Assembly: GCA_012799905.1 (NCBI GenBank)
Contig: JAAZKI010000587.1
Location: 1 to 41,956, forward strand
DNA: 41,956 bases
Reading direction: 5' to 3'
DNA from: Lentisphaerota bacterium
GTDB taxonomy: Bacteria; Verrucomicrobiota; Lentisphaeria; Oligosphaerales; Oligosphaeraceae
Part shown: one piece after another, positions 11,584 to 41,669 of the stretch
How positions within the stretch are numbered: position 1 is the first letter of the stretch
Layout: each line of letters begins with the position of its first letter
The notes under the pieces: model-generated
The model's database searches: none
Told to the model about the DNA's origin: nothing
Seen by the model: the letters and a program-made list of their open reading frames with translations, nothing else
Made by a program: the position numbers and the translations under genes

Positions 11584-11640
11584 TATAAACCAACAACTAA
11601 CAACTAACCCGTCCTTTGAGTAAATCACCCCTTACCCACT

Positions 11641-11723: not shown

Positions 11724-11767
11724 TAAAAAAAACCTCAACCCCAACCTTTCCACCACAGGAGCAGCAC

Positions 11768-12517: not shown

Positions 12518-12524
12518 ACCCGGC

Positions 12525-12604
12525 CGCCAGGCTAATCCTGGCGCGCCATTCTACGCTGCTGGACGGTCTCGCGCCGAGCTGAAAATGCCTGGCCGAGACC
12601 GTCC
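12525..12604 (+). promoter_or_regulatory. two stable hairpins between nagB and the ABC genes
   Basis: Hairpin 1: CGCCAGG (12525-12531) / CCTGGCG (12537-12543). Hairpin 2: GGACGGTCTCG (12561-12571) / CGAGACCGTCC (12594-12604), extended by GCC/GGC. Neither has a T-run, so an mRNA-processing, stability or attenuation role is likelier than simple termination. Confidence 0.55.
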
Positions 12605-12624
12605 ACGTTACTACCTTGCCATCC

Positions 12625-14133: not shown

Positions 14134-14137
14134 TCCC

Positions 14138-15121: not shown

Positions 15122-15183
15122 GCATCGTATTCATCCATTCCCGGTTTGTCTTCCCAATTCACCATTCTATCAGGATCCACACT

Positions 15184-16158: not shown

Positions 16159-16167
16159 GTCGGCGAC

Positions 16168-16205
16168 GCCAGGCCTGGCGAACTTAAGCTGCAGCCAGGC
16201 CTGGC
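16168..16205. terminator. twin palindromes between convergent genes
   Basis: The 12-bp palindrome GCCAGGCCTGGC occurs twice (16168-16179 and 16194-16205), 14 nt apart, between the converging importer operon and yebC. The copies can pair with each other or fold alone. There is no long T-run, so a bidirectional terminator is likely but not certain. Confidence 0.5.
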
Positions 16206-16216
16206 TGAAAAGCGCA

Positions 16217-16984: not shown

Positions 16985-17043
16985 AGGCAGCTCCTTTTTC
17001 TTCTTTTTGTTTCCAGACTTCTATTTCTGTTACTGAGTAAACG

Positions 17044-17062
17044 TTATTGTGATAGACAATAA
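17044..17062 (-). promoter_or_regulatory. inverted repeat upstream of yebC
   Basis: TTATTGT and ACAATAA flank a 5-nt centre (GATAG on the plus strand). The repeat is AT-rich, perfect in both 7-bp arms, and centred about 70 nt before the yebC ATG. It may be an operator, but no promoter is clear enough to anchor it. Confidence 0.35.
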
Positions 17063-17165
17063 ATCTAATGCATGAAACATGTTTCTGCCAGTAGTGCAAG
17101 CGCAAAGAAAATGCCACGCCGCGCCAGTGCGCCTAGTCAAGGCGGTCATGACAGCGCTGGCATGA

Positions 17166-20883: not shown

Positions 20884-23679
20884 TCAGGGAGTTATGACTT
20901 TGACCTCGTAGCGTTTAAAGGTCATGGTTGTGGGTTCCTGGCCAGGAATGGGTATGGCTGCTTCGAACTCGTCTTCACTGGTATTGACGGCAATGACCGT
21001 TTGCTTGCCGTTGACGGTCTTTGCCCACCATTCGACGCGGGCGTCTTTTTTGACTTCGACAGTGCCTGCCTCAGTGGCGCCAGGAGCGAGGAGCAGTGGA
21101 CGGAGATCACGGATGTCCTTGACGACCGCGCAGAGGGCGTCCCACGCATGGGGAACGTGGGCAACGGTGTAGAACTGCTGCTGGTGGGATGCATACCACC
21201 ACCACCATAGACCATTGACGGACTTGACGACGCCGACGAAGGCAGCAGCACGCATCCAGTCAGCGTCCGGTTCAAATCGCGTGGGGTCAACGGGCATTTT
21301 ATTCCGGAAGGCCTTGCTCTGACTCTGGTCGTAGCAATGGATGAGGAGGGTAATCGGCGAGTCGTTGAGCAGGAGTTCGCGGTGGCTGGCAATGGTTTTG
21401 ACGATTTGCGCAGGTTTGTGGTAGCTCTGGGTCCAGTGAGTGTCCCAAGTGCGCCGGTACTTGTTCATGCCCCTGCCCCAGGTGGTCATCACCACGGGAT
21501 GATAGGGATCGAGTTCACGGACTAGTTCAGCCAGGCTGGTCAACAAGGCCGGCGAGACGTACTGCTTGGCGATTTCCGGCTCGTCGTACAGATACCAGCA
21601 AAAGAGGCCGGGATGATCCGCCAGCGCGCCAACACGTTTAACGAGGTGTTCGAAGTTGCCTTGAACCATACCGCTGCCGCTGCCCACGCCGCGGTCAAAG
21701 CCGATGAAAGCCCGCAGGCCATTGGCGGCGCAGGCGTCAAGGTATTCGCGGCAGGCGACGTCGTCCTGACTGCTCTCCCAGCGGTAGGTGTGGATGACTT
21801 CGAAGCCAGCGCCCTTGATCAACGGCATGTCATTCGGCCGCACTTCGTAGATACCCAGGGGGAAGATTTTCTGGCCGTTCTGATTGTAGTTGCCGTCGCT
21901 GTCAATGATGACGACGTCAGCCGGTTTGGCTGCGTGGAGCAGCCAGAGGACTTGTTCGGCGCAGTTGCCGCTGGGATCGGTCGCGGTGACGTGCAAGGTA
22001 TTCAAGCCGCGCGGCCAGCCGCCGGGCATGCCCAGGGTGTATTCGAAGCGCTTTTCGCCCAAGGTGCGCGGTGCACTTACGCTGACGGCCTGATTGTCGC
22101 CAATGCTGGCAGCGATGGTCGGCGCCTGCGCGTCTTCGTCGCTGACAACGAGAGTGACGCTGCTGTCCGGCGTGGTGACGCGCCAGGCGCGCCCCGCGAT
22201 GATGGGCGGCAGGCAGTCGCGCTCCACTGGCACGTCGTGGGTGAAAGACCACGGCTGCACATCAGTACAGCCCACGGTGGTGACGCGCCAATGCCAAGTG
22301 CCGGGCGGCAGCGGCTCGCGCAGCTGCCATTTGGTGTCAACTCCGAGCTCGTAGCGGCGGGTGGCGTCACCGACGGGGAAGCTTTCGTCGCGGGACAATT
22401 CGAGGACGTAAGAGTTGACACCCATCATCAAAGGCGTCCACTGGAAGAATGGCGTGTTGGTGGCCAGGACGGCATCGGGTTCAGGCCTGAGCTTGTTCAC
22501 CGAGATGTCAACTTGGCGCATGCTGAAATCATCAAACCAGGCTTTACCCGCGCCGCGGAGGGCGAGAAAGACAGAAGCAAATCCGGCGTCAAGGGGAGCG
22601 CGCAGCCCCTTGCATTCCTTGAGTTGCCAGTCCTTGGTGCCGAAGATATCGCAGGCGTACTGGCCGGAGTCGAGCCATTTGCCGTTTTTGTCAGCCCATT
22701 CCACGATAAGACCTGCGCCGACAGATGGCATTCTGCCGGCCTTGGGCACGACATTCTCGGTTTTAACGAAACAGGAGGCATCGTAAACCCTACCACCGAC
22801 GATAGGCACCCGGCGCGTGATATAAAATTCTTCAGTCATGGGGTCATTGACGGTCAGGCAGGCGGACTGTTCACCGGAGTGGACGTTATCGCGGTCGAGG
22901 CTCCCCGTCTTGCCGAATGACCAGTTGTCCTTACCGTCTTCGAAGCCGGCATTAGCCAGCGCTATGGGCGTCACCCGGCGCAGTGGCACGCGCAAACGGC
23001 GCTGGCGCCTAGCGACTTCGGCAGGGGCGAAGTCCTCTACAGTGAGTTCCACGGTGGTGGCGATGGCTTTGGCTTGGTCAGTCACATGGGTGGACATGAT
23101 GTAGCGGATGGCTTTTTCGTAGTCGCGGCGTTTATCCTGAAGCATAAAAACAAAGGGGCCTTCAGTCCGGGCAAGAGTGTAGCGGTGTTCGGGCAAGTCA
23201 AAAACCAGCGTACTGACTCCGCGGTTGGAGAATTTTTCCTCGTCATTGATGCTGATGGGTTGACCATCGCCGCAGAGGAAAATCAGGCCATCGCTGGTCT
23301 TCGGGCTATCTGGCGGGATGTAAATGCCGAATTCGACGGGGCCGGTGGGCTGGGCGAGCATATTGAGGGCTATGCACAGGGTTTTATCAGTGAATGTGAG
23401 GGTCAGTTTAGCGTCGGCTTGTTGGTCCTGTTTATGCCAGGTGAAGGCATTGCCGTCTCGTGTCATGGCAGCATTCCGGAAGTTGAAGCTCTGCTGCTTC
23501 CAGCCTGGTGTGAAGGCCGCAAGGCTGAAGCGGCTGATGAGAGTCTTGCCGGCGTAAGACACAGCGATGTTGCTGGCAGCATCGACATTGAGCTGCCAGT
23601 TGCCGATGGCGGTGCTAACTTCCTGCGCAGAGAGCAGACCAGCGCTGAGCAACAAGGACATGAACAGCTTTTTCAACAT
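20884..23679 (-). CDS. large secreted multidomain protein, glycoside-hydrolase-like
   Basis: The 931-residue protein has a signal peptide (MLKKLFMSLLLSAGLLSA). In order: an N-terminal beta-rich region (about 20-225); a carbohydrate-binding-like jelly roll (about 235-390, NAGFEDGKDNWSF...FVKTENV); a fibronectin-like domain (about 400-480, NTPFFQWTP...GTWHWRV); an Ig-like domain (about 490-590, TATDPSGN); and a C-terminal barrel (about 600-930) starting KIFPLGIYEV with WYLYDEPE as a probable acid pair. The barrel plan resembles GH42/GH2-like hydrolases; activity is unproven. AAGGA precedes the ATG. It is transcribed alone and likely acts on a polysaccharide outside the inner membrane. Confidence 0.82.
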   Translation of the reverse strand: MLKKLFMSLLLSAGLLSAQEVSTAIGNWQLNVDAASNIAVSYAGKTLISRFSLAAFTPGWKQQSFNFRNAAMTRDGNAFTWHKQDQQADAKLTLTFTDKTLCIALNMLAQPTGPVEFGIYIPPDSPKTSDGLIFLCGDGQPISINDEEKFSNRGVSTLVFDLPEHRYTLARTEGPFVFMLQDKRRDYEKAIRYIMSTHVTDQAKAIATTVELTVEDFAPAEVARRQRRLRVPLRRVTPIALANAGFEDGKDNWSFGKTGSLDRDNVHSGEQSACLTVNDPMTEEFYITRRVPIVGGRVYDASCFVKTENVVPKAGRMPSVGAGLIVEWADKNGKWLDSGQYACDIFGTKDWQLKECKGLRAPLDAGFASVFLALRGAGKAWFDDFSMRQVDISVNKLRPEPDAVLATNTPFFQWTPLMMGVNSYVLELSRDESFPVGDATRRYELGVDTKWQLREPLPPGTWHWRVTTVGCTDVQPWSFTHDVPVERDCLPPIIAGRAWRVTTPDSSVTLVVSDEDAQAPTIAASIGDNQAVSVSAPRTLGEKRFEYTLGMPGGWPRGLNTLHVTATDPSGNCAEQVLWLLHAAKPADVVIIDSDGNYNQNGQKIFPLGIYEVRPNDMPLIKGAGFEVIHTYRWESSQDDVACREYLDACAANGLRAFIGFDRGVGSGSGMVQGNFEHLVKRVGALADHPGLFCWYLYDEPEIAKQYVSPALLTSLAELVRELDPYHPVVMTTWGRGMNKYRRTWDTHWTQSYHKPAQIVKTIASHRELLLNDSPITLLIHCYDQSQSKAFRNKMPVDPTRFEPDADWMRAAAFVGVVKSVNGLWWWWYASHQQQFYTVAHVPHAWDALCAVVKDIRDLRPLLLAPGATEAGTVEVKKDARVEWWAKTVNGKQTVIAVNTSEDEFEAAIPIPGQEPTTMTFKRYEVKVITP

Positions 23680-25164: not shown

Positions 25165-25201
25165 CTATTTTGGGGAAAATTTTTCTCAAAATAGCATTTT
25201 T
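25165..25201 (+). terminator. probable terminator after isomerase gene
   Basis: CTATTTTG (25165-25172) pairs with CAAAATAG (25187-25194), with an inner GAAA/TTTC stem, followed by CATTTTTG. It is AT-rich but perfectly paired. Confidence 0.6.
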
Positions 25202-25499: not shown

Positions 25500-26225
25500 T
25501 CACTTCACCACGCCGACCTTGATATTGAGGTCTTCTCGGCGTTCGAGGCGGTCAACGGCGCCGTCCTTAATCCACAGAATCCGGTCTGAGGTCGCCAGCA
25601 TTTTGTGGTCATGCGTCGCGGTCACCACGGTCACTCCCAGTCGCCTTGACAAGTCAGCGATCAGGTTGATGATTTCCTCGCCGGTCACCAGGTCGAGGTT
25701 CGCAGTCGGCTCATCCGCCAGGATAATTGCCGGCTCATTGGCCAGCGCCCGCGCAATGGCCACCCGTTGTTGCTGGCCGCCGGACATTTCGTCCGGTCGA
25801 TGCGTCAAGCGATGACCCAGGCCGACCATTTCAAGCACTTCAATGGCGCGCTTGCGCGCCTTTTCGGGTTCGACTCCACTGAACAACAGCGGCAGAATGA
25901 CATTGGAGATGGCGTCATAGGCGGGCAGCAGGTTGTAGGCCTGGAAGATGTAGCCGATGTGATTGCCGCGGAAATGCGCCAGCTGCCGCGGCGTCAGCTT
26001 AGTCAAGTCGACGCCAGCGACTTCGACCAGGCCGGAGGTCGGCCGGTCCAAGGCGCCAATCATGTTGAACAAGGTGCTTTTGCCGGAGCCGGACGGGCCC
26101 ATGATCGACATATATTCGCCCCGGTAAATCTCCAGATTGATGTCACGCAAGGCGTGCACAACCGCTTTGCCGAGGTTGAACTCCTTGTTCACTTTTTGAA
26201 CTCTGATCAGGACTTCCTGACTCAT
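25500..26225 (-). CDS. LolD/MacB-type ABC transporter ATP-binding protein (2)
   Basis: The 241-residue ATPase has Walker A GPSGSGKSTLFN, signature MSGGQQQRVAIARAL, Walker B IILADEPTANLD and the H-loop TATHDH. It belongs to the class that powers FtsX-like permeases to move lipoproteins or peptides or do mechanical work, rather than importers. The ATG at 26225 has GGGGA 8 nt upstream; an alternative ATG is at 26246. It is the last gene of the minus-strand transporter cluster, 60 nt after the OPT gene, and is the likely partner of the large FtsX fusion upstream. Confidence 0.92.
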   Translation of the reverse strand: MSQEVLIRVQKVNKEFNLGKAVVHALRDINLEIYRGEYMSIMGPSGSGKSTLFNMIGALDRPTSGLVEVAGVDLTKLTPRQLAHFRGNHIGYIFQAYNLLPAYDAISNVILPLLFSGVEPEKARKRAIEVLEMVGLGHRLTHRPDEMSGGQQQRVAIARALANEPAIILADEPTANLDLVTGEEIINLIADLSRRLGVTVVTATHDHKMLATSDRILWIKDGAVDRLERREDLNIKVGVVK

Positions 26226-26285
26226 GTTTGCAGTCCCCTTATCCATGTCTGCCAGCACCGGTCTACCCGGGAACTGTCCCTGAAC

Positions 26286-28304
26286 TTAAAACGGCAGCTT
26301 GATGACAGCCTTGCTCAAAAAAGTAACGCCGACGCCGACGGTCGTAATCAGCCCCATGCCGCACGAAAATCCGGCCGCGACCACTGGAATGTACTGCCGC
26401 CACTTCAATTTCAGGCGCTTCTTGAAATAGAACTGCCCAATCAGCGCACCCAGGAATTGCGGCAAAATCGAATGCGGCAGGCTCTGTCCCAGACCTCGGA
26501 CCACGCCATACGTCAACATAATCGGCGCTCCTAAAAGCTGCATGCCGCCGAACAGGACGACTCCGGCTACAGCTCCAACGCTAAGGTAGGTGACATTAAA
26601 AGCCTGCTCGAACATGGAGAATTCGCCCATGGTCGAGGAATACATAATGCACCTGTTAGCCGCAGTCAGCTCCCACATCCGCTGTGCAAACGGATACGCT
26701 ACCGAAGGAATCCGATCCAGGCCCCAGATGAAATTCATGAAGAAAATCGTGCTGAGCAGAATCAGTGGAAAGAGTATGATCTTGGTTTTCCAGATGCTGG
26801 TGAATTTCGTCCCCGTCAATTCGCATTGCCGGTAGAACACGGTCATCGTGCCGTAATTGGCGATCGGCAACGGCAGGAACCAGACGGCGACGCCGTGATA
26901 GCCGCTCAAAATCAGCGCGGCTTCACGAATCATCGGCACTTCGACGACTTGGCCGACCATGCCTTCCAGCCGCGCCGTGACGTAGCTGGTCAGCGGCGTG
27001 TAGAAGAAGCCAAGAATCAACAGCACAATCAGGACGTTGCGGATGTCCTTGGTCCAGCCGCCATGATGCCACATCAGCAGCCCGATTGAAACACCGATGT
27101 AGGAGCAGGTGATGACAAAATAACAGAGCAGGATTATCCAGCCTTTGATATCGCCGCGGCCAGGTGGAACGTCTTTCCAGGTGCCGCGCTTGGGGCCGCC
27201 GCCGGGCTGCCGGGAGGCACGACGGCTTTTGAGCACGCTGCGCACGACCTGGTAAATCCCAGCCAGGGCAATCGCGACCGCAATGCCGATGTGCAGGCTA
27301 AAATAAAAGTCGATGTTGTTCTTGAACAGTGTCGACACTGTGTCATCGCCGAATTTCCAATTGCTGAGGATGCCGTGATTGTACAAGATGGGATTGGCGA
27401 CCACGGTGATGATCAGGCCGATGAAGCTGCCGACCATGCCATAGAACGGCATCACCATGCCGGTAATGATGTTGCCGAAATCCCACGAGATGCCGGTCGC
27501 CACCGCCTTCAGGTACAAACCAGTCTTGCTGGTGAAATCAGAAAATGGAATCGGGAAAATCTGGATAGCGGTACCGGTCAGTGCGCCGCTGATGACCGGC
27601 AGGAAAAGATAGATAGAGCCGAAAGCCAGTCCCAGCGCCCCACCGATCGCAAACACCCGCCAGCGCCAGGATTCCTCGGCCGTCTTAGCATCCTTGGCCT
27701 CAATGTCCTCGGCCATCGCCATGATGCCCTGGGCGCCAATCGGCGCCATGGGAAACGGCAGTCTCTCCATGTCGCTGGCAATGCGGAACAAGCCATAGCC
27801 CAGGACGACGTTCGAAAGCTGACCGACAAAGGAACCGAATATCATCATCAGAATCGCCGGCAGCCAGTCGATGTGGAAAAAAGTCCGCTTTGCGTATGAG
27901 TCCGACCCCAGGGGCGCTGCCCACCAACGCGGCAACTGGTCAGCCAGGCCGTTGGCGGCCGCCGCGTCGCTCTGAGCGAAAAATTGCTGCCAAAGCAGGC
28001 CGCCGGTCGTGGCTGCGCCCATCATCGACCCGGCCATGAAGAACAGCACGAAGATTTCCGAGCGGTTCAAGTAACGGTGCGCCCGGCGCGCCACTTCAAT
28101 GAACAGGATGACAGTCACCCACTGCGCTGCCGAACCAATGCCGGTGCCGGCCAGGAGCCCCATGTAAATCGCCCCAGGCACCATGAGCAGGGCCACAAAA
28201 ATCGCGCCAAATAGCGACGACCAACGGAAGCCCTCCTCAAAGGTGGAAGGCACTTCCATGATGCGCCGAAATTCTTCAAGCTCGCGGTCAACTCGATGTT
28301 CCAT
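26286..28304 (-). CDS. OPT-family oligopeptide transporter-like protein
   Basis: This 672-residue polytopic protein has roughly 14-16 hydrophobic segments and a cytosolic N-terminus (MEHRVDRELEEFRRIMEVP). Blocks such as LPFPMAPIGAQGIMAMAED, GYGLFRIASDMERLPFP and VRGLGQSLPHSILPQFLGA fit the OPT family of proton-driven peptide or metal-chelate transporters, close to forms annotated in planctomycetes. The Arg/Pro-rich loop near residue 365 (RRASRQPGGGPKRG) should be cytosolic. It sits between the FtsX fusion and its probable ATPase, unusual company for a secondary carrier. The substrate is not readable. Confidence 0.85.
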   Translation of the reverse strand: MEHRVDRELEEFRRIMEVPSTFEEGFRWSSLFGAIFVALLMVPGAIYMGLLAGTGIGSAAQWVTVILFIEVARRAHRYLNRSEIFVLFFMAGSMMGAATTGGLLWQQFFAQSDAAAANGLADQLPRWWAAPLGSDSYAKRTFFHIDWLPAILMMIFGSFVGQLSNVVLGYGLFRIASDMERLPFPMAPIGAQGIMAMAEDIEAKDAKTAEESWRWRVFAIGGALGLAFGSIYLFLPVISGALTGTAIQIFPIPFSDFTSKTGLYLKAVATGISWDFGNIITGMVMPFYGMVGSFIGLIITVVANPILYNHGILSNWKFGDDTVSTLFKNNIDFYFSLHIGIAVAIALAGIYQVVRSVLKSRRASRQPGGGPKRGTWKDVPPGRGDIKGWIILLCYFVITCSYIGVSIGLLMWHHGGWTKDIRNVLIVLLILGFFYTPLTSYVTARLEGMVGQVVEVPMIREAALILSGYHGVAVWFLPLPIANYGTMTVFYRQCELTGTKFTSIWKTKIILFPLILLSTIFFMNFIWGLDRIPSVAYPFAQRMWELTAANRCIMYSSTMGEFSMFEQAFNVTYLSVGAVAGVVLFGGMQLLGAPIMLTYGVVRGLGQSLPHSILPQFLGALIGQFYFKKRLKLKWRQYIPVVAAGFSCGMGLITTVGVGVTFLSKAVIKLPF

Positions 28305-28375: not shown

Positions 28376-31300
28376 TCACGCCTGCTGCTTCGTATCTTCC
28401 CCGTTCCCATTCATAATCTGCAAGGCCTCCAGGGTCTGCTGGCGATAATGCTCCATGGTCTCTGGCGAAATGGAGCGCCAGATGAGGAATTGCTGCCGGA
28501 GGTCGTCCAGGAAGACCTTATTTAGGCGCTGCCAATCCTTTGGCTGTCCGGACAGACGATGCAGCACCACCCGAACCTCGTCAATGCCTTCGATTTCGCT
28601 TGGCGTGCTGCGCAGCGCGAAGGTCTGGCTCACCCCCAGGTCAAACGGCGCCAAAGCCAAGCGCGCATCCAGGCCAAGGTCGCCGTTGGGTTCCTGTACC
28701 AGCTTCACGTCGCTCGTCATGAACCGCCCCAGGCCAGTGTCGGTATGATTGCCAAAATGCTCTTTCAGGAAAGACACCACTCCGGTAATGTCGTATTGCG
28801 ACACTGTAAACGGGAACACTAGGTCCATCAGGTCGCCGACTGGCGGCGGCGGGCGCCATGTCCGCATCAAACCCGGGTTAGCTGATTTCGAGGCTTTGAT
28901 CGCCGGGTAGACCGACGAGAGCAGCACCGTCACCATGACAATCAGAATCGTCGCAATTGTATTCGTTGACGACATATTCATCTCCGGCACTCGCACCAGG
29001 CCGTATTCCGCAGCCACCCCCAGCACCTTCAAGGTTCCTTGCGCCAGCAGATATCCGCCCAGGCCGCCGATAAGGGCGTAGACCATGGACTCGGCAAAAA
29101 ACAGCGTTGCCACGTGGCGGGGCGCCAGGCCAAGGGCGCTGAAGGTGTAGATTTCCTTTTGCCGGTCCGCCACTGATCCGAGCATGGTGCCGAAGATCAC
29201 CAGGCCGCCCAGGACTATCGGGAAAAACAGATCGCGGGCGCCGCTTGCCTTCAACACTGTTCCCAGGAGGTGCCGGTAGACGCCGTTGTCGCCGGTGGCC
29301 GGGATTGGGAACGGCAGCATCCGAGCCAGGTTCTCCGCTGTCTCCACTGCGGCCGTGCTGTCAGCCGTATACACGGTCAGCGCATACAGGGCGCCGCCGA
29401 TCGCCTTGGCTGTGTCCGCCGTCACCACTGCCACCTGGTCAACCGGCAGACTCGCCCAATTGCGCTGCGACATCGACTCCATTGCCTCGTCATCCTCCTC
29501 CAGCGCTGCCGCTGTCGGCTGCGAGGACGAGGTTATCTCCGTGAAGTCAGCCGGCAGAATGCTGCTCATATCCATGTCCTTGGCTGCCGAGACCTGCACG
29601 GCGTCCAGCAGTGGACCTACCCGGAGCCGCCGACCGCGCAGCAGCACCTCGTCCCCAGCGACGACGCCCAGCGCCTCGGCTACGGCCTCTGTGATCAGCA
29701 CCGTATCTTCCTTCAAGCCGCTGAAATGCTCCTGGAGATCAGGCCGATTGGCGATTTCTTCCTGCTCAATGCCGAGGATGCCCCGCACTGTCACCGGCCG
29801 GGACGCATCCGTACGGCTCATCAACAGCCCGGGGTTGTCTTGCGTGGACGGCGACACCCACAGGCGTCGGCAGACGGTCAAATCCGGCCATCGGCCGCGG
29901 ATGATGTCCTGCAAGTCCTCGCTGAGCGGATTCCAGTTGACATTATGCACAAAGGCGCCGCAGTAGTTGGGATTCGGCGCTGCAAAGATCGTGACGATGC
30001 CGGACTGGGTGCCAAAAGACGCGAAGCACAGGATGGTAAAGGTGAGGAGGATAATCGTGATGGCGGTCAAAGCGGTGCGCGTGGGTCGGCGGCGCATGGT
30101 CGAGATGCCCATCTGCATTGCTGCCATGAAGGTGTTCACATTTGACACGTCGTTGACGTGCACTGTCGTGGTCATGCCCTGAATCGCTTTGAGCTCATAC
30201 TCGAATTTCCGCATGATGATGAAAATCACCATGACCGACATCACCACGATGGCGAAGCCTAAAAAGATGATGATCGGCGTGTTGGCGATGGCAAAGGCCG
30301 GATGTGACAGGTACAAGACGAGGAAGGTGACCGCAAAAAAGAAAACAAACCAGTAGATTTGCTTGTAGATGGTGGTGGCGCCGATCAAAACCCGCTCCAA
30401 GGCGAACGCAAACGGCACTGACAATCCCAACAGAATCAGGACTGCGAACACCAGATCGTCCAGCATGGCCCTGACTTTCTGGTACACCGGCCGGGAAACC
30501 CAGAACGACGTGGTCGCCAGCGCTTCCCGCCGCATTGGCGACGTGCCTGGCCGAGCCGCTTCCAGGAGGATATCCTCGGAACGGCCGTGCATCTCGGCCA
30601 AGGAGGAATCCAGGATGCCCTTGGCCCGCAGGATTTCCATCCGGGACTCGTTCAGCCGCCAGAGGTCGGCCGCCGAGCGCGCCGCTGCATTCAGGGTTAG
30701 GGGTTCGTCGCTCATCGGGAAGCCTTCGCCAATCTGCTCTTCGCCAGGCTCGAACGTCTCCAGGAACTCAGGCCCATTGTTCAGGCCGACCATCTGTCTT
30801 ATGCTGAACAACTTAACGCCCTTCTCCCGCTCCTCGGCATACCAGCACACCACGCCGTCAACCGTCTCAGTGAACGACTTAGCGCGGTCAAGGTCAGAGT
30901 TAGCCCGAGCCGACAACACCTTCACATTATCGCCTGGCAGCCTATGCGTCCGCTGCTGCGATGGCAGCACTATGCAGCCGGAATTGGCCCGGAAGGTGTT
31001 GAGGCGCCAGCGGATCGTCGTGTATGAGTTGTTTCCGGAGACTTCTGCTGGCAGGCCCTGGGGATCGAAGATTACGGCAAAGCCGCCGCGGGCGCCCCAG
31101 GCGTTGGTGACCGGCCCCAGGGCGTAGCTGCCGTTCCGGTTTGTTCGCAGCACCTGGAAGTTATCAAAGGCGGGCGGTTTGCTTTCCTCATAGGCGAGGG
31201 ACATGTTCCGGGTCAAGCGGAATTGGATGATAGCGCCAGACATGGGAGTATTGGGGATTGAGGTTCCGGGCAGCATGCCCATGACCATGGGGCCCTTGAC

Positions 31301-33247
31301 GCTGTTGTCACTGTCAAAACTTGGCAGCACGTATTCCTTGCTGGTGACGATGCTGCGGCGCAAGGACAGCCCTGGATGGCTGCCGACCGTTTCCGCAGCC
31401 AATTCAGGAGACATGGCGCCAATCGGGAACAGGAATGCAGCGATATCCTCGACCTGGCTAAAAAGGCGCGACAGGTTCAAGCGGTCCAGGGTGTCGTGCG
31501 GCGTGCCCTCGTACTGGGCGGATTCCTGCACCGTGCCCAGGCACAAGTTGTAAATGCCAAACAGACCGGCCGGCTCGCCGCTGTGGATGAGCGCCTGAGA
31601 AGCCCACAGCACCCGCGTCTGCGACAAGGTCTGGTCTGCCGACTCCGGCAGAAACAGGCTGTCCAGGCCGGCCTCGGTGCGCTTTTGGTGCGTGCGCAGG
31701 AAGACCGCCTGAATTTTGCCATACAGCCCGGGGTTGTCCTGATGCGAATGCATGGCCGACTCCCCGCCAATGACCAATCCCCAGCGCTCACTGGTATCAC
31801 CCAGCAGCAGCGACGTATGAAGGGCGATCCAACGATCCCCCAACAGCCGCACAATCGCGGCGTCTGCGTCCAGCGCCGCCCGTTCCTGCTCAAGTTCACG
31901 GGCTCGGGCATCAATATCATCCTGGACCTGGGCGACGATCAGCTCCAGGTTAGCCTGCACTTCCGGGCTAAGGGTGATCGGCTCGCCGCCAGACTGACGT
32001 TTCTGCCGACCAATCACCCGTTGCAGCTCGTTCCAGGACTGCTTGACCGGAAGAACCTCCGCCTTGGCAGCGGCGATTTCCTCGACCCGCTCCCGCAAAC
32101 TCTCGGGCAGCTGCGTGCCATACGTCTTGCGGTAGTTCAAAAGTTCGTCATTTAAGCGGTATTCCTTATCCTTGTAGATATGAGCCTGCTGCTGCGCCTT
32201 GTCCGTCAAACGGTCGAGAAAGCGCCGCCGGGCGTCCTTGGAACGCGCAGTCAGCGGCGCCGGACTGGTCAGAATCTTCCTCATTTCGCTGATAAAGGTC
32301 ATTTCATTGGCATATGATTCCTCCCGCTTCGCCAACGTGACGTCAGGCTTATCCGCTTCCAGGGCGCGGTAGAAATAACTGCTGCCGAGATGTCCGCGCG
32401 CTTGCTGGTCAAAAAAGGCAATCAGGGTATGGCGGCGAGGCCGATTGCGGCTGACTTCGCCAGCCAGATGGAGCAGCGCCGCGGCATTGGCTGCGCTGCG
32501 CGCGCCAGGCGACAGCCAGGGCACCTCGCCATAACTGTCGAGGTTGGCCGCCAAAATCACCACTTCCTCCTTGCTCTGCGCAAACACAGGGTCGGTGCCT
32601 TGAAAGAAAGCGAAAAGGTTGCGACCGACGGCTGGCGCCCAGACGACGCTGCTGTGCAAAGTCGCGGTCGCGCCGGCCGGAATATCCGCTGCCGGGCCGT
32701 CATAGTAGAAGCGCAGGAGATTGACATTGCTCATGACATAATGCGAATGGCGTGCGTCTGCTTCGGATGGCCGCGTAAAGATGACGGCCTTGGCGCCCAG
32801 GCGCAAAGCCCTCAGCCAGCCCTGTCCGCAATTGTAGTCCAGGACAACCAGCGCCCCTTCCACTGACTCGCGTTCATAGTCAGCAGCGGCGCCCTGGCCC
32901 ATGTGGACGATCTTGCCGGTCACCCCGGCCTCGGGAGTCACCGGCGGGATGATGCCGTTCGGCCGCATCGGATGCAGCGCCAGCGTCCGACCATCCGTCA
33001 AAACCAGGTCAGCGCGCTGTTTCTTGATCTGAACCGTTGCAAACGGCTGTTCAATGATCTCATCTGGGGACAAAGCCTGGAGCCGCGCCAGGACATAGTC
33101 GGCGGCGCGATTATACTCTGGCGTGCCGCTCAGCCGGTGCGGTTCGGCGCTCAGCCGCTCACAGTCCGAGATAAACTCCGGGGGCGGCGCTGCCGACCAA
33201 GCCGCCGCCGTCAACCACATCGCTAAGATAAATGTCCAACGCTTCAT
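28376..33247 (-). CDS. M28-peptidase-like ectodomain fused to FtsX/MacB permease
   Basis: The 1,623-residue protein has a signal-like N-terminus (1-20), then an M28 aminopeptidase-like domain with an inserted PA-like region (about 25-330). The M28 metal-site motifs are altered: HxD reads NLD (235-237), the bridging Asp is Ser251 (GARSAAN), and the Glu pair is QQ (281-282). A coiled-coil stretch (about 340-490) and a beta-rich region follow. Membrane helices start near 930; an FtsX-type helix lies near 1055-1075, a second extracytoplasmic part at about 1080-1330, and the final FtsX helices at about 1340-1460, then a ~160-residue soluble tail. I infer a substrate-binding, catalytically dead ectodomain coupled to an ABC permease. 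The start at 33247 has GGAAA upstream. Confidence 0.85.
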   Translation of the reverse strand: MKRWTFILAMWLTAAAWSAAPPPEFISDCERLSAEPHRLSGTPEYNRAADYVLARLQALSPDEIIEQPFATVQIKKQRADLVLTDGRTLALHPMRPNGIIPPVTPEAGVTGKIVHMGQGAAADYERESVEGALVVLDYNCGQGWLRALRLGAKAVIFTRPSEADARHSHYVMSNVNLLRFYYDGPAADIPAGATATLHSSVVWAPAVGRNLFAFFQGTDPVFAQSKEEVVILAANLDSYGEVPWLSPGARSAANAAALLHLAGEVSRNRPRRHTLIAFFDQQARGHLGSSYFYRALEADKPDVTLAKREESYANEMTFISEMRKILTSPAPLTARSKDARRRFLDRLTDKAQQQAHIYKDKEYRLNDELLNYRKTYGTQLPESLRERVEEIAAAKAEVLPVKQSWNELQRVIGRQKRQSGGEPITLSPEVQANLELIVAQVQDDIDARARELEQERAALDADAAIVRLLGDRWIALHTSLLLGDTSERWGLVIGGESAMHSHQDNPGLYGKIQAVFLRTHQKRTEAGLDSLFLPESADQTLSQTRVLWASQALIHSGEPAGLFGIYNLCLGTVQESAQYEGTPHDTLDRLNLSRLFSQVEDIAAFLFPIGAMSPELAAETVGSHPGLSLRRSIVTSKEYVLPSFDSDNSVKGPMVMGMLPGTSIPNTPMSGAIIQFRLTRNMSLAYEESKPPAFDNFQVLRTNRNGSYALGPVTNAWGARGGFAVIFDPQGLPAEVSGNNSYTTIRWRLNTFRANSGCIVLPSQQRTHRLPGDNVKVLSARANSDLDRAKSFTETVDGVVCWYAEEREKGVKLFSIRQMVGLNNGPEFLETFEPGEEQIGEGFPMSDEPLTLNAAARSAADLWRLNESRMEILRAKGILDSSLAEMHGRSEDILLEAARPGTSPMRREALATTSFWVSRPVYQKVRAMLDDLVFAVLILLGLSVPFAFALERVLIGATTIYKQIYWFVFFFAVTFLVLYLSHPAFAIANTPIIIFLGFAIVVMSVMVIFIIMRKFEYELKAIQGMTTTVHVNDVSNVNTFMAAMQMGISTMRRRPTRTALTAITIILLTFTILCFASFGTQSGIVTIFAAPNPNYCGAFVHNVNWNPLSEDLQDIIRGRWPDLTVCRRLWVSPSTQDNPGLLMSRTDASRPVTVRGILGIEQEEIANRPDLQEHFSGLKEDTVLITEAVAEALGVVAGDEVLLRGRRLRVGPLLDAVQVSAAKDMDMSSILPADFTEITSSSQPTAAALEEDDEAMESMSQRNWASLPVDQVAVVTADTAKAIGGALYALTVYTADSTAAVETAENLARMLPFPIPATGDNGVYRHLLGTVLKASGARDLFFPIVLGGLVIFGTMLGSVADRQKEIYTFSALGLAPRHVATLFFAESMVYALIGGLGGYLLAQGTLKVLGVAAEYGLVRVPEMNMSSTNTIATILIVMVTVLLSSVYPAIKASKSANPGLMRTWRPPPPVGDLMDLVFPFTVSQYDITGVVSFLKEHFGNHTDTGLGRFMTSDVKLVQEPNGDLGLDARLALAPFDLGVSQTFALRSTPSEIEGIDEVRVVLHRLSGQPKDWQRLNKVFLDDLRQQFLIWRSISPETMEHYRQQTLEALQIMNGNGEDTKQQA

Positions 33248-33416: not shown

Positions 33417-34202
33417 TCATTCAATGGTGCCGACTTCGATATGCACCTCACTGCGGTCTGCCATGCGGTCAATGCGTCCATCCCGAATCCACATCAGCCG
33501 GTCGCAGATATTCATCATGCGGTGGTCATGCGTGGCGCAGATAACCGTCACGCCCTTTTCCTTGTTCAAGCGTTGCAGCAGTTCCAGAATCTCCTGTCCG
33601 GTGTTCAGGTCCAGGTTAGCGGTCGGCTCGTCGCAAAGCAGCACGCTCGGGTTATTGGCCAAGGAGCGTGCAATGGCCACGCGTTGCTGCTGGCCGCCCG
33701 ACATCTCAATCGGCCGGTGATGCCAGCGTTCCTTCAGACCGACTATTTCCAGGATGCCCATGCCGCGCTCCCGGGCCTGGTCAGGCATCACTCCGCCAAA
33801 CGCCATGGGCGTGGTCACATTCTCCAAGGCAGTCATATATTTAATCAAATTGTAGCTCTGGAAAATATAGCCGATTTTATGGCAGCGCAGATACGCCAGC
33901 TCTTCGGCCGTCAACTGAGCCACATCGACTTCGTCAATGAAGACGCGCCCTACCGACGGGCTGTCCAATGCGCCGATCATGTTGAAAAACGTCGATTTAC
34001 CGGAGCCGGACGGCCCCATCACGGCGATGAACTCACCCTGGAAAATCTCAATATCAACCCCTCGCAGGGCCTCGGTCAGAACGCCTTTCATCATGTACGT
34101 CTTTTTCAAGCCCACCGTCCTGATGATGACGCGGCGGTCGCCGTTGCCGTTTGCGACGGCCGAATTCTGCCCGTTGGTTTGTTCTGCTGTCACTGCCGCC
34201 AT
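33417..34202 (-). CDS. LolD/MacB-type ABC transporter ATP-binding protein (1)
   Basis: The 261-residue ATPase has a low-complexity N-terminus of about 22 residues (AEQTNGQNSAVANGNGDRR), then Walker A GPSGSGKSTFFN, signature MSGGQQQRVAIARSL, Walker B VLLCDEPTANLD and the H-loop CATHDH. It is clearly paralogous to the product of 25500-26225. It lies 51 nt downstream of the FtsX permease gene and is its likely motor. The ribosome site (AGAG) is weak; translation may depend on the upstream gene. Confidence 0.92.
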   Translation of the reverse strand: MAAVTAEQTNGQNSAVANGNGDRRVIIRTVGLKKTYMMKGVLTEALRGVDIEIFQGEFIAVMGPSGSGKSTFFNMIGALDSPSVGRVFIDEVDVAQLTAEELAYLRCHKIGYIFQSYNLIKYMTALENVTTPMAFGGVMPDQARERGMGILEIVGLKERWHHRPIEMSGGQQQRVAIARSLANNPSVLLCDEPTANLDLNTGQEILELLQRLNKEKGVTVICATHDHRMMNICDRLMWIRDGRIDRMADRSEVHIEVGTIE

Positions 34203-35906: not shown

Positions 35907-37994
35907 TTAACCGGGCAGCACCCCGAATCCTTTCGGCGGCATGCCAGTAACAATATAATATATTACGCCAGATGCAGTTATAGTAAGACCGGCCAGTATG
36001 TCGCCGGCAATCAGCCCGATCATCAAAGGCTTTAATTTCTGGACAAATTTACTGCCGCCGTAATGGTTGGCGATAATCTTGATGGTTCCGCCGATGATGA
36101 AAGACCAGGCCATCATATAGCCGGCATAGCCAGGCCAGAGGCAGAAGAGGACGGGGTGGATGGGCCAGCGCGCGAACCGGAGCCTGGCCACGCTGAACAG
36201 GAGGGTGGCGGCAAACGTCGCCCCAAAAGCGATCATGAAGCGCTTGTTTGGTTTGATGGCGGCAAAGCGTTGGAAGCCCTTGCAGCTCTCAGAGGCCGCC
36301 AGGGTGTCCTGAGCCTGGAGGCGCTGGCGAGCCGCGACAACGGAGTTGATGGCGTAGCGCGGCACGCTGGAGGTGGCAAAGCCGTCCCGCCAGTTGGCGC
36401 CGCGGTCATAGTTGAAGTAAAGCGTCACGGGTATGGCGATGCAAAGGCCGACGATGATGGCGATGGCCGTTAACGGCAAAACCCGCGAGAAGCGGAGCCG
36501 AGAACTTGCAGAGAAATGCAATGCGTTGACCATGAATGGCATGAAGCATTCACGCGGATCAATAAAGAAAATTGTAGTCAGAAAAAACATGATGGCCAAG
36601 GCGGAGGGGCCAAGGGCCTGTTCGCCAAGGATGGCGACAACCAGGGCGCAAGGATAGATTCCCGGCGAAAGGTAAAAGACACCGGCTTCCGCGATGATTC
36701 GGCCTAACACCGTAAACAGCGCGATGGCAATGGCCGTGTAGAGCAAGGCCAGCTGCCAGTCAAGGCCAAGCACTGTCAGGCTGACGATGAAGGCGGTAGC
36801 GGCAAGCAAAAAGCAGCGGACGCCCCAGACTGCGGCGGCAGGCACGTCCCGACTAGGGCCGAGCCGCAGCGCACCTTTCAGGGCGCTGAGATAGTAGTGG
36901 CGCCCAGTGTAGAGCAAAGTAGCAAAAAAGGCCAGGAATCCACCTAAGATGAAGCCGCTGGAGATACGGCCGGAAAAGATGTAGCCGGCATGCATGGGCA
37001 TGCCAATCTTGGCGAGGACACCGGCAATGTAGAAGAAGACAAAGGGGCCGATGCCGACGGCCATGGACACGTCAACAGGAATCAGGAAGGCAATGCCGAT
37101 GGCGGTAAAATAAAGCCTGATAGTGAGGAGGGTACGGCCGCCGCCGCGCATGAAGGTGGGGAAAAGCTTGGAGAGAGGCCATAAGCTGATGAAGCGCCGG
37201 AAGGGAATCAGATATTCAGAATGATAGAGGTAGAGATAGTTGTTGAGATGGATGGCATAGACCAACAGGCAGGAAAGCCAGAACCATTTGTTGCGGAGAA
37301 CCTGGCTGACAGCGCCATCGGCTTCGGGCATGATGGTGCGAGCGAATTGGACGATTGGGTAGGGCAAGAGTTCGTTGTTGGCCCATTGGTGGTGACAGGC
37401 GACGGCGATGCCGCCAAGGGCGAGCCATAGCAACAGAAAAAGTGGAATCCAGAGGGAGAGGGTGTCTTTCCAGGCGCCCCAGGGGATGTCAGCTGGGCTG
37501 ACATGCTTTTGGCCCGGCTTGGTGGGCATGCCCTGAGCCATGGCCAGCAAGGCGTTGCCATCGGCGTACTCTGGGTCTGCGAGCATGCGCTTAGGCAGGA
37601 GGTCGGTCGCGGGCGTGAACGTCGGGCTGTCCTTGCTGTCTTGCAGTTTCCAATTGGCGTTGGTTTTGGCGTAGTGGTGCGGAAGCATGAGGGCGTTGGG
37701 CAAAAGGCGCATCATACTGCTGTAGGGGATGCAGCAGGTGGGAAGGACAATGGCGAGGATAAAACAGAGTTCGCGCGAGGAAAATGGCCGCAACCACGAA
37801 GACGGCTTGCCCCGGCTGAGACGGCGCAAGATGGGATTGACCGTAATTAGAAAAAGGAACAATCCGCCAAACACGGACATGGGCATGTGATTGCCCACGA
37901 ACAAGGATTGATAAAGGATAGCGTCATTGAAATATGTGAAGCCGCAGATGAAGGCGACAGCTGCAAAGGCCAGGAAGAAAGCACGCAAAGTCAT
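35907..37994 (-). CDS. OPT-like polytopic membrane protein (DUF6785/DUF6784 type), copy 2
   Basis: The 695-residue membrane protein has about 14 helices and is paralogous to the product of 39600-41669. Shared blocks: RELCFILAIVLP...IPYSSM (N-third), LLPYPIVQFARTIM (middle), and the C-terminal RWPIHPVLFCLW...KLKPLMIGLIAGDI, which fits the DUF6784 end. Such proteins are known from PVC bacteria as OPT-superfamily-like with no proven substrate. It follows the PqqD-like gene by 272 nt, a gap containing its own putative promoter and a palindrome. GAGAG lies about 11 nt before the ATG. The next gene (FtsX) starts 177 nt downstream. Confidence 0.82.
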   Translation of the reverse strand: MTLRAFFLAFAAVAFICGFTYFNDAILYQSLFVGNHMPMSVFGGLFLFLITVNPILRRLSRGKPSSWLRPFSSRELCFILAIVLPTCCIPYSSMMRLLPNALMLPHHYAKTNANWKLQDSKDSPTFTPATDLLPKRMLADPEYADGNALLAMAQGMPTKPGQKHVSPADIPWGAWKDTLSLWIPLFLLLWLALGGIAVACHHQWANNELLPYPIVQFARTIMPEADGAVSQVLRNKWFWLSCLLVYAIHLNNYLYLYHSEYLIPFRRFISLWPLSKLFPTFMRGGGRTLLTIRLYFTAIGIAFLIPVDVSMAVGIGPFVFFYIAGVLAKIGMPMHAGYIFSGRISSGFILGGFLAFFATLLYTGRHYYLSALKGALRLGPSRDVPAAAVWGVRCFLLAATAFIVSLTVLGLDWQLALLYTAIAIALFTVLGRIIAEAGVFYLSPGIYPCALVVAILGEQALGPSALAIMFFLTTIFFIDPRECFMPFMVNALHFSASSRLRFSRVLPLTAIAIIVGLCIAIPVTLYFNYDRGANWRDGFATSSVPRYAINSVVAARQRLQAQDTLAASESCKGFQRFAAIKPNKRFMIAFGATFAATLLFSVARLRFARWPIHPVLFCLWPGYAGYMMAWSFIIGGTIKIIANHYGGSKFVQKLKPLMIGLIAGDILAGLTITASGVIYYIVTGMPPKGFGVLPG

Positions 37995-38266: not shown

Positions 38267-38683
38267 TCACTTGGCGTCGTTTTCGGCTTGATTCTCCTGA
38301 CTGTCTGGCGCCATCATGACGGCCAGGATGCCGCGTTGAATCAACTTGCGCAGATAATCGACTACCGCCGCCCGCGCCTCGTGAAAGCTCAAATCATACG
38401 TATCCTTGAACAAATCAATGACGTCTTCAACCGTTCGCTGGCCATCGCACCAGCGCCACAGCCGAGTGCCGATGGCGTCCAAGTCGATTTCCCGCTCGGG
38501 AGAATAGGGCACAAACCAACTTATCGGTGGTACCATATATTTCGGTTTTTGTGTTTTGACAACCACAGTCACGGTGTTTTCGCCTTTTTCGCGCACAGCT
38601 GCCGCAATATTGCGGACCGGATAAGCTGCCAACATCGCCCGCCAGTCCCCGCTGCCAAGGCCGGCTGAGTCACCACGCTTCAT
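38267..38683 (-). CDS. PqqD-like protein
   Basis: The 138-residue protein's C-terminal half (about 72-130) is a PqqD-type small winged-helix domain: IDLDAIGTRLWRWCDGQRTV, then EDVIDLFKDTYDLSFHEA and VVDYLRKLIQRGIL. PqqD domains bind leader peptides in modified-peptide (RiPP) pathways, but no radical-SAM enzyme or precursor gene is seen here, so another peptide- or protein-binding role is likely. The N-terminal ~70 residues are unrecognised. Its ATG overlaps the stop of the upstream gene (ATGA), and GGAGGT lies just upstream of the ATG. Two further in-frame Met codons upstream are ignored. Confidence 0.85.
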   Translation of the reverse strand: MKRGDSAGLGSGDWRAMLAAYPVRNIAAAVREKGENTVTVVVKTQKPKYMVPPISWFVPYSPEREIDLDAIGTRLWRWCDGQRTVEDVIDLFKDTYDLSFHEARAAVVDYLRKLIQRGILAVMMAPDSQENQAENDAK

Positions 38684-39603
38684 AGCAGCACCTCCAATCC
38701 GGAGCAGCAGGACAAGGCAACGTCCAAGCCAGCAGCCTGCTGCCCGCGCCGTTGGTGCATCCAACGCGACACGCAGTACAGACGGCGGTCGCCCGGGCAA
38801 ATCCAGGCGCAGGCCTCATACTGCCGTCGGCCATACAGCCAATCCTTCAGCACGGAGCGTTCTCGACGCGCAACCAGGCTGCAAACGTCATGCCCAGACT
38901 GCCCTGCATGGGTCACGCTCTCCTGCGCATACCCGGCGGGAATCGTCTGCACCAGCCATTCCGACACCGACGTTGTCAGCCATTCCGACACCATGCCCCG
39001 GCGCGCAAAGGTCGCCGCGCCGCGATTATTGCGGAGAGCGAAAACAGCCTCAGCCTGCGCCGGCTCAACGGCGCAGGAGGCGAAGACGGTTGTTGCTGGG
39101 ACGTGCCAAGTCATGCCGAACGCCTGCCAACGCTGGCGACCATCCTCTGACCTGGTCAAAACCCGCAGCATATCCAGCACCCGCCCTTCGAACGACGGTT
39201 TCGACTTCTCACCCGGAGGCCACAGGAAAACCGCCTCTAAAATCTGGCGACTCTCAGCCGAATACATCCCGTAACGGCAGATATCGCGCTCGCCATCCTG
39301 ACCGGACGTCCCCAACCAGGGGGAATGACCGAGCGGCCGAACGTCGCTCAGGCCGTCCTCCGACAACTTGGCGCGGTAATCGCTGACCATCCGTTCCATA
39401 TCTGGAGGCGCTTGCATGCGCTTCCAGTCCAGTTCAAAACGATACTGGTAGCGGTCGCCGAACACGCAGCGTCCGACTTCCGGATTGCGGGTGAATTGCA
39501 GCATTTCCCAGTCTGGGGGCAGCGTCACCGACAGCCCTTGCCAGACCCATGTCTGCCAGGCTGGGGAAATCTGTCCTGAACGTGGCAAGCGCGGCGGCTT
39601 CAT
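38680..39603 (-). CDS. uncharacterised soluble protein between OPT-like and PqqD genes
   Basis: This is a 307-residue protein I do not recognise, with no signal peptide or membrane helix. The N-half has TWVWQGLSVTLPPDWEM and YQYRFELDWKRM. The C-half, WQAFGMTWHVPATTVFASC, has a similar cadence, so two related lobes are possible (by eye). Trp- and Cys-rich, ending ALSCCSGLEVLL. The start MKPPRLP at 39603 is fixed by the 4-bp ATGA overlap with the OPT-like gene; its own stop overlaps the PqqD start in the same way. Strict coupling implies fixed proportions and a shared job with those two proteins. Confidence 0.85.
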   Translation of the reverse strand: MKPPRLPRSGQISPAWQTWVWQGLSVTLPPDWEMLQFTRNPEVGRCVFGDRYQYRFELDWKRMQAPPDMERMVSDYRAKLSEDGLSDVRPLGHSPWLGTSGQDGERDICRYGMYSAESRQILEAVFLWPPGEKSKPSFEGRVLDMLRVLTRSEDGRQRWQAFGMTWHVPATTVFASCAVEPAQAEAVFALRNNRGAATFARRGMVSEWLTTSVSEWLVQTIPAGYAQESVTHAGQSGHDVCSLVARRERSVLKDWLYGRRQYEACAWICPGDRRLYCVSRWMHQRRGQQAAGLDVALSCCSGLEVLL

Positions 39604-41669
39604 CGTGGGAACCATCTGTAAGGCAATGGCTTCTGTCCTGTATTGAGGTAATACAGGAAGCCGACGATCATAAAGATGACGGCGGCGATGATTTCACCGG
39701 TAATGATGCCGATCATCAGCGGCCGCAGCTTCCGCGCCATGCGAATGCCGCCGAAACGCACAGCCGCCTTTTTCAACATCCAGCCGATGAAGAAAGAATG
39801 GCAGGTCATCGCCATCGGATAAGTGGCCCACAGCAAAAACATGACAGGGTGCAACGGCCATTTGGGAACCCGCAGACGCAGAAAACTGAAGAACAGCACG
39901 ACGATGATGCCAAAGCTAAAAGCGCCCACGAACATATCTTTAGGCGCGATCTGCGACAGGCGCTTCCACCAGGGCAGCGCCGCCACCTCCTCCAGGCAGC
40001 CGATTGCCTTCAGCTGCAAGACTTCCGGCAAGGCCGAGCGGAAGCTCATCGTGGGAATCCGCTGGTAATGCCAGTTCATGTTAGTCGGCGCCCCGAATTC
40101 ATAGATGGCCACGAGGATGACTGCCACCGCGATCACGACTGCGACCGTGTACATGATCATGCTGGTCACTCCAGCCTTGGCCGGCTTCACCCCGGCTCGG
40201 TCGCACAACCGCAGGCCATTCGTCAAAAACGGCATGAATGCCTGGCATTGGTCAATGCACAGCATGACGCAGACCAGGCCGCAGATCACCTGCGCTTCCG
40301 GCGAAAACGTGTAGGTGCCCAGGCCAGCCAGCAACAGCCCGAAAATCGTCCACCGAGGCTGGATAAAGAACAGCCCGGTCTCAGCGCTGATCCTGGACAC
40401 GACCACAAAGGACAGCAGAGTCAAAAAGACCGTGATCAAGGCAAACGGCAGTTCCAGCCCCAGGCGCCAGATCAGGTATGTCATCAACACGAAGGCCACC
40501 ATCAGCAGACGGGTCGCCCAGATGTTGGCGCGCTCCGGCTCGTCCGCAGCCAGTGGTCGAAACGCCTTGACCAGCAAATACCGATAGTAGTTCCGGCCCG
40601 TGTATAACAGCATAAAGAACATAGCGATGTACGACCCGGCTCGCTGCCAGCCCTGCCAGCCGCCAATCCAGTCGGTGGACAAATTCATGCCAACGGTCAC
40701 CATCGGCAACGCGGTCAGAACCCAGCATAGCTGCGACAGCCCCAAGGTCAACGATATCTCCGTGCTCAGGAAAAACGCAAAAGCGACGACCAGCGGAAAC
40801 ACTGACAGCGCCAGCAGGTTGGAGCCGTATTGCACCCGGAACAGCTGCGGCCAGACCTGGGCGAACGGCGTCAGACTCCAGTTCAGTCGAATGGGAATAT
40901 AGTAATCCGGAAACCACACGCAAAGGCCATTGTTGACCCGGATGACAACCAAAAGGATAAATCCGATCCAGAACAGCCGGCTCCGGAACACCGCCGGCCA
41001 TAGGCGACCGGGCGATTGCTCGATGAGAGTGGCGTTGAAATCGGCAATCGGAAAACTGAGGAATTCATGGGCTGACCACTGCTTGTAGGTAATCAACGCC
41101 AAACAGACGCTGGCCAAGGCGCTGAGCAGCACAAGCGGCATCCAAGTTTTTAGCGGCGGCCACCAGGCTCGCCAGGGCACTCGGGTAATCTTGGTCCACA
41201 TCCAAGCGTGCCAGGGCCGCTCATCCACCACGCCTTTTGGCGCTCCCATGATGTAGCCGCCGACCGTCTGATCGTAATTCTCCTCGGTGACATCGACCAG
41301 GGCTTCCTTCGGCGCATAGCTGAGAATGTCATTCTGCTGCCAGCCGGGCGTCACGCGGTTCCAGTGGAACGGCATTATCATCGTATGCGTGAACTGCTCC
41401 AACAAGCCGCGCCCGGGAATGCTGCAAGACGCGCTCCACAGCAGCACAATCAGCGCCAATTCACCAGTCCGGAAAGCATAGCGCGGCCGCCATAAGCCAA
41501 TCAACGGATTGACCAGCAAGACCACCAACGCCATCAAGCCGATGACGATAATCGGCAATAACTGGCCGTTGGTGAAACTCTCCAACCCTAAAACGCAGTC
41601 GTTGATATAACCGCAGGAGGCAATGAAAATAGCCCCCAGAAAACCGATAATGAGACTGCGCACTGACAT
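39600..41669 (-). CDS. OPT-like polytopic membrane protein (DUF6785/DUF6784 type), copy 1
   Basis: This 689-residue protein with about 14 membrane helices is the first gene of the minus-strand cluster. Blocks: GELALIVLLWSASCSIPGRG, HEFLSFPIADFNATLIE, RISAETGLFFIQPRW, and near the C-terminus KWPLHPVMFLLWATYPMAM and ARKLRPLMIGIITGEI. It shares its plan with the gene at 35907-37994, but the two are well diverged. AAGGT lies 8 nt before the ATG at 41669, and a near-consensus -10 box lies just upstream. Transported substrate is unknown; the OPT superfamily suggests peptides or metal complexes. Confidence 0.83.
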   Translation of the reverse strand: MSVRSLIIGFLGAIFIASCGYINDCVLGLESFTNGQLLPIIVIGLMALVVLLVNPLIGLWRPRYAFRTGELALIVLLWSASCSIPGRGLLEQFTHTMIMPFHWNRVTPGWQQNDILSYAPKEALVDVTEENYDQTVGGYIMGAPKGVVDERPWHAWMWTKITRVPWRAWWPPLKTWMPLVLLSALASVCLALITYKQWSAHEFLSFPIADFNATLIEQSPGRLWPAVFRSRLFWIGFILLVVIRVNNGLCVWFPDYYIPIRLNWSLTPFAQVWPQLFRVQYGSNLLALSVFPLVVAFAFFLSTEISLTLGLSQLCWVLTALPMVTVGMNLSTDWIGGWQGWQRAGSYIAMFFMLLYTGRNYYRYLLVKAFRPLAADEPERANIWATRLLMVAFVLMTYLIWRLGLELPFALITVFLTLLSFVVVSRISAETGLFFIQPRWTIFGLLLAGLGTYTFSPEAQVICGLVCVMLCIDQCQAFMPFLTNGLRLCDRAGVKPAKAGVTSMIMYTVAVVIAVAVILVAIYEFGAPTNMNWHYQRIPTMSFRSALPEVLQLKAIGCLEEVAALPWWKRLSQIAPKDMFVGAFSFGIIVVLFFSFLRLRVPKWPLHPVMFLLWATYPMAMTCHSFFIGWMLKKAAVRFGGIRMARKLRPLMIGIITGEIIAAVIFMIVGFLYYLNTGQKPLPYRWFPR

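Follow-up and report, generated by a model that had tools for sequence, protein, structure and literature searches.

A giant Type VII ABC permease with an M28 peptidase-fold ectodomain that has lost its metal site, and the conserved gene module around it, in a Lentisphaerota bacterium

Introduction

M28 folds serve as non-catalytic scaffolds in the transferrin receptor (TfR1) and in nicalin, whose M28/PA-fold ectodomains have non-catalytic roles. In nicastrin, another dead M28 protein, the peptidase-derived site is used as a substrate receptor (PMC2647162). Among bacterial envelope systems, the coiled coil of EnvC passes motion from FtsEX to a LytM domain without catalytic residues (PMC7668044), the Type VII permease of YbbAP-TesA hands material to a hydrolase fold (PMC12646458), and DipM of Caulobacter, which joins LysM to a dead LytM domain, regulates autolysins (PMC10336132). 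In the literature searched, the only dead peptidase domains that relay the force of a Type VII motor, or are acted on by it, are M23 (LytM) regulators.

Here we describe a locus in a window of 41,956 nucleotides (contig JAAZKI010000587.1) of a Lentisphaerota bacterium, which encodes a 1,623-aa permease that we label M28X (open reading frame 28376-33247, reverse strand). Like FtsEX-EnvC of Escherichia coli, it would combine a Type VII permease and a cytoplasmic ATPase with a long periplasmic coiled coil and a dead peptidase-fold domain. EnvC, however, is a protein of its own with the fold of M23 (LytM), whereas the dead domain of M28X belongs to M28 and lies inside the permease chain, and the M28X module adds OPT-like and DUF6785 proteins; judged by its predicted components, the module is not FtsEX-EnvC. 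YbbAP-TesA of E. coli shares the hydrolase-fold partner above a Type VII permease, and YbbP is among the Foldseek matches of M28X, but TesA is a separate and active lipid hydrolase and YbbP has ten transmembrane helices and a pair of like periplasmic domains. Nicastrin, nicalin and TfR1 have M28/PA ectodomains in non-catalytic roles and all three match the ectodomain profile of M28X; they are, however, eukaryotic and carry no ABC permease. Nearest by profile and fold are the PA-containing M28 aminopeptidases (2ek8, YwaD/BSAP and the carboxypeptidase-Q-like L137-L144), which have the same build of PA and catalytic domain, but with intact metal-ligand motifs and with neither insertion nor permease. 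DipM resembles a LysM-bearing subtype of M28X in its LysM and dead peptidase domain, but is soluble, of M23 fold and without apparent link to FtsEX.

Results

Gene module and its distribution

All genes of the window from 41669 to 25500 share one direction (Table 1), and the promoter-like site (41715-41686) and the hairpin (25165-25194) at the two ends of this run are consensus matches only. The module consists of two LolD-type ATPases, a second FtsX permease, M28X, an OPT-like protein and a DUF6785 protein. In all subtypes with known neighbourhoods, M28X was accompanied by the OPT-like protein, DUF6785, one or two LolD-type ATPases and the small FtsX permease, in varying order; the few loci that miss one module part lie mostly at contig ends. 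Pfam confirmed the DUF6785 assignment for all aligned neighbours (23/23). Among 48 genomes of the window's order, 31 contain both M28X and the OPT-like protein, 15 contain neither, and in two (G021, G030) the M28X match stops at a contig edge. Lentisphaerae bacterium ADurb.Bin082 has a protein 94% identical to M28X, and Oligosphaera ethanolica one that is 74% identical. From gene order and co-occurrence we infer that the module proteins may form a complex. M28X would be the hallmark of a conserved ATP-driven machine of six parts that recurs across the phylum of the window genome, the genomes covered being from the same phylum.

Table 1. Coordinates of the module genes and of the regions of M28X within the window
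Feature	Position	Strand	Basis or remark
Second DUF6785/DUF6784 membrane protein, apparently opening the operon	39600..41669	-	Pfam
311-aa protein, no Pfam match	38680..39615	-	Many clusters of this subtype have it conserved upstream of the gene for FtsX
DUF6785/DUF6784 membrane protein	35907..37994	-	Pfam
Second, smaller FtsX/LolCE-type permease, 491 aa	34254..35729	-	Pfam/profile
ABC2, LolD-type ATPase	33417..34202	-	Motifs intact
M28X, giant permease, 1,623 aa	28376..33247	-	Single open frame; ATG at 33247, stop at 28376
M28X signal peptide, residues 1-20 (MKRWTFILAMWLTAAAWSAA)	33188..33247	-	Read from sequence
M28X PA domain and first half of M28 fold, residues 21-316	32300..33187	-	2ek8/YwaD profile match, AF2, Foldseek
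N235-L236-D237 in place of HxD; His ligand lost, Asp retained	32537..32545	-	Alignment
Former bridging Asp = R250/S251; loop shorter by one residue	32495..32500	-	Alignment
Q282 (in place of catalytic base) and A283 (in place of metal ligand) at former Glu-Glu	32399..32404	-	Alignment
M28X coiled-coil insertion (long helices) inside M28 fold, residues 317-465	31853..32299	-	AF2 helices
M28X second half of M28 fold, residues 466-640	31328..31852	-	Alignment, AF2
Former ligand in second M28 half, L481	31805..31807	-	Alignment
Former ligand in second M28 half, G581	31505..31507	-	Alignment
M28X beta-rich region and helical stalk, residues 641-925	30473..31327	-	AF2 secondary structure
M28X three extra transmembrane helices, residues 926-1010	30218..30472	-	Hydropathy, AF2
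M28X Type VII permease module with one TM helix, a periplasmic domain and three further TM helices, residues 1058-1450	28898..30076	-	Pfam FtsX; Foldseek MacB/LolCDE/HrtB/YbbP
M28X residues 1465-1623, C-terminal domain in the cytoplasm, possibly of helix-grip (START/Bet v1-like) type	28379..28855	-	AF2, weak Foldseek
OPT-like polytopic membrane protein, neighbour of M28X wherever contig allows	26286..28304	-	Pfam OPT
ABC1, LolD-type ATPase	25500..26258	-	Walker A/B, signature, H-loop intact

The marginal match of Pfam OPT (PF03169) to the protein encoded at 26286-28304 (27.6 bits against a gathering threshold of 25.8) covers the C-terminal 110 residues only, and 10 of 25 OPT-like relatives match the family at E<=0.1. 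No solved structure matching the OPT-like protein was found by sequence. For the OPT-like and DUF6785 proteins as one superfamily, hhalign gave probabilities of 7-16% only. Spread of the module on plasmids was rejected, with no plasmid match for M28X or the OPT-like protein. The NCBIfam equivalog cut-offs for FtsE and FtsX were not reached. The literature searched, in which few subscription journals were covered, gave no description of the module and no mention of DUF6785 or DUF6784, which is weak evidence of novelty.

Architecture and fold of M28X

The start codon of M28X is preceded by AGGAAA. Behind an N-terminal signal peptide, the protein has some 900 residues in the periplasm, then three transmembrane helices, an FtsX/MacB module with four transmembrane helices and a cytoplasmic domain. 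A single-sequence Pfam scan of M28X returned FtsX only and not M28, which is seen through profiles and relatives. Thus a profile built from 45 ectodomains matched the 2ek8 aminopeptidase (2.6e-20) and YwaD (4.3e-18) in the PDB, as well as nicastrin, TfR1 and nicalin, and among the 45 ectodomains themselves Pfam recognized M28 in 20, Nicastrin in 15 and PA in 6. The AlphaFold2 model of the ectodomain, computed from the same alignment, reached a pLDDT of 91 and a pTM of 0.89, and its best 50 Foldseek matches were all PA/M28 proteins. According to profile and model, the ectodomain is a PA and M28-aminopeptidase fold with a coiled-coil insertion, so that the structure prediction yielded M28 and no other fold. 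The insertion (residues 317-465) is the least conserved part of the ectodomain.

In the C-terminal half, PF02687 (FtsX-like permease C-terminus) was found at residues 1342-1454 (2.1e-12), and Pfam, Foldseek and hydropathy agree on a periplasmic domain between the first two transmembrane helices of the FtsX/MacB module. The AF2 model of this half (pLDDT 82) matched LolCDE, MacB, HrtBA, YtrEF and YbbP in Foldseek (MacB 5lil, 3.7e-9; LolE, 1.9e-9), and it is therefore assigned to the Type VII ABC permeases. M28X is predicted to serve as the large subunit of the permease in a Type VII ABC machine of the MacB/LolCDE/FtsEX superfamily. The sequence-only reading, which had proposed a peptidase fold with a lost metal site fused to an FtsX permease, is borne out by profile, alignment, AF2 and Foldseek. 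Residues 1465-1623 gave weak Foldseek matches (E about 0.03) to helix-grip (START/Bet v1-like) ligand-binding proteins.

The erased metal site

The former site was located by alignment with 2ek8 (HMMER), with genuine M28s (hhalign) and by hmmalign, the genuine set being L137-L144 of the same phylum with intact HFDS / D / EE / NLD / HD motifs. In M28X all five metal ligands and the catalytic Glu are replaced (N235, R250/S251, Q282, A283, L481, G581). The change of HxD to NLD had already been read correctly from the sequence and falls at N235-L-D237. The bridging Asp had been placed at Ser251; its loss stands, but hhalign and hmmalign put the position at R250, because the loop is one residue shorter, with S251 as the alternative and Asp at neither. 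Likewise, the Glu-Glu pair is lost as proposed, but it corresponds to Q282-A283 in all three alignments (HMMER against 2ek8, hhalign, hmmalign) and not to Gln281-Gln282. The earlier list of three altered motifs was right about the losses and incomplete, since it omitted L481, which replaces the Asp of the 'NLDM' strand, and G581, which replaces the His of 'YHxxxDT/HTPxDT' (multiple alignment and motif). H477 as a direct substitute for the fourth ligand was rejected, as the alignment puts this ligand at L481. Taken by these alignments, M28X is a member of the M28 fold that lacks what defines an active M28 peptidase.

Homologues and selection

An intact M28 metal site was found in none of 83 aligned homologues, nor does any of them have a set of metal ligands at other places of the aligned domain. 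All 83 lack the second metal-ligand Glu, the base Glu is present in six and the first His in nine; the Asp of HxD is kept in 81 and replaced by Glu in two. Because the motif losses recur in every homologue examined, they are not due to chance, and an artefact of sequencing or strain was rejected on the same grounds. The replacements at the old site vary between subtypes. Active versions of the family, for which the homologues had been proposed as a check, were not found among the 83, the least degraded being L134 (G161:C7). This sequence, on a long branch, keeps three of five ligands and the base (first His, bridging Asp, catalytic Glu, acidic fourth ligand). In a tree of 92 rows, the 83 homologues lie on one side of a branch with SH-aLRT 99 and nine genuine M28s on the other; since the genuine M28s are few, the tree supports this grouping and is not a full family tree.

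Within the window's subtype (28 sequences), several residues at and around the old site are strongly conserved (R250 96%, Q282 86%, H286 96%, H477 100%, D484 96%), the motif G581-T-P-x-D585 is conserved to 100%, and N254, W489 and E558 are near-fixed too. Between the window and its nearest relative, dN/dS was 0.09 over the ectodomain, 0.031 over residues 226-316 and 0.058 over the membrane half; segments of the ectodomain ranged from 0.03 to 0.12, with the lowest values around the erased site. A value of 0.03 at this place argues for conversion rather than decay, as the sequence-only reading had held, and a pseudogene was also rejected on account of the frame being open in distant relatives. 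By these comparisons the loss of the metal site is old and phylum-wide, and has been under strong purifying selection since. Near-fixed residues at the old site and low dN/dS together suggest that the old face was rebuilt with other residues, a pattern that would be expected of a binding surface.

Discussion

A non-catalytic binding or adaptor role appears to be the likeliest one for the pseudo-M28 domain, and we consider it probable that this domain is moved by the Type VII ABC permease in the manner of FtsEX-EnvC. The dead M28 domain would not cut. Instead, ATP binding and hydrolysis in the cytoplasm would drive the periplasmic parts of the permease (mechanotransmission), and the motion would pass via the stalk and the coiled coil to the pseudo-peptidase domain, whose former active-site face would bind or release a partner or ligand in the periplasm. 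The same motion would gate the substrate passage or the activity of the OPT-like and DUF6785 proteins, which would be the partners in the membrane. FtsEX-EnvC would be the nearest analogue, and we infer from the comparison with known systems that M28X may combine the principles of FtsEX-EnvC and nicastrin in one chain. For the module as a whole we propose, more tentatively and at somewhat short of even chances, a six-component envelope machine, at least phylum-wide in the group to which the Lentisphaerae belong. Its Type VII motor, with the dead M28 domain built in, would drive or gate the OPT-like and DUF6785 proteins, and an OPT-type carrier would in this way be used with ATP coupling.

The sequence-only reading had suggested a peptide as the ligand, which would make the ectodomain a receptor feeding an OPT-type importer. 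This idea derives from the M28 ancestry and the OPT-like neighbour with its Pfam OPT matches only. OPT transporters, however, need no ATPase, the OPT-like protein is far from known OPTs, and some clusters adjoin sulfatase and glycosidase genes instead. The Type VII permeases characterised to date, moreover, act on lipids or periplasmic partners and not in import (PMC12646458), and we regard a peptide receptor as rather unlikely. One subtype (L118, L119, L120/L160, L121, L122) has LysM inserted within the M28 fold, directly ahead of the strand with HxD, in 5/5 tested. The insert places the ectodomain of this subtype, as far as domain content can tell, near peptidoglycan, and the ligand could therefore be wall material as well as peptide.

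The LysM inserts, the coiled-coil insert and the Type VII fold, with FtsX of FtsEX-EnvC among the weak Foldseek matches, would also suit a system of cell-wall control, in which the ATP-moved domain, like EnvC, switches a peptidoglycan hydrolase on or holds it back, and products of the wall are handled by the OPT-like and DUF6785 proteins. Yet neither the window cluster nor the flanking proteins tested include an amidase or other wall hydrolase, most subtypes are without LysM, and the machine is missing from 15/48 genomes of the order and is therefore not a core division system, so that we judge such control to be unlikely. We have similarly little confidence that the pseudo-M28 domain is a structural scaffold which holds the complex together or spaces it from the cell wall, with no ligand at the old face. 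The scaffolding M28 folds of the transferrin receptor and nicalin offer a precedent, and the differing replacements between subtypes would agree with it, but in the window's subtype conservation at and near the replaced positions is among the higher in the ectodomain, and dN/dS is lowest around the erased site. A rebuilt site, metal-binding or catalytic, could be made up of H286, H477, H555, D280 and D484, all of which reach at least 93% conservation in that subtype; it is improbable, as H286 and H477 are not kept across other subtypes.

If the proposed binding or adaptor role holds true, M28X would be a second, independent case of a dead peptidase domain coupled to a Type VII motor, from another peptidase family and fused to the permease itself, and it may newly exemplify how an inactive enzyme is put to use for binding or as a lever. 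It would moreover be linked with polytopic membrane proteins of two families, one of which (DUF6785) is of unknown function and is given a functional context by the module. Since the cultured species Oligosphaera ethanolica carries the cluster (L040), the question is testable there.

The genes flanking the clusters gave no consistent hint of a substrate, as sulfatases, GH20, fucosidase, heparinase-like and metabolic genes are mixed. Several clusters (L162, L163, L167, L005) lie beside sulfatase, GH20, alpha-L-fucosidase or heparinase-like genes, in genomes that are possibly just rich in them. In the window, 20884-23679 encodes a 931-aa secreted glycosidase-like protein with no significant Pfam match, which adjoins the cluster only in the same genus. 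The window's own genome carries a second, diverged copy of the module on another contig (L005; G000:C334:1-20000, 5293-17778), in which the M28 site is degenerate too and differently altered.
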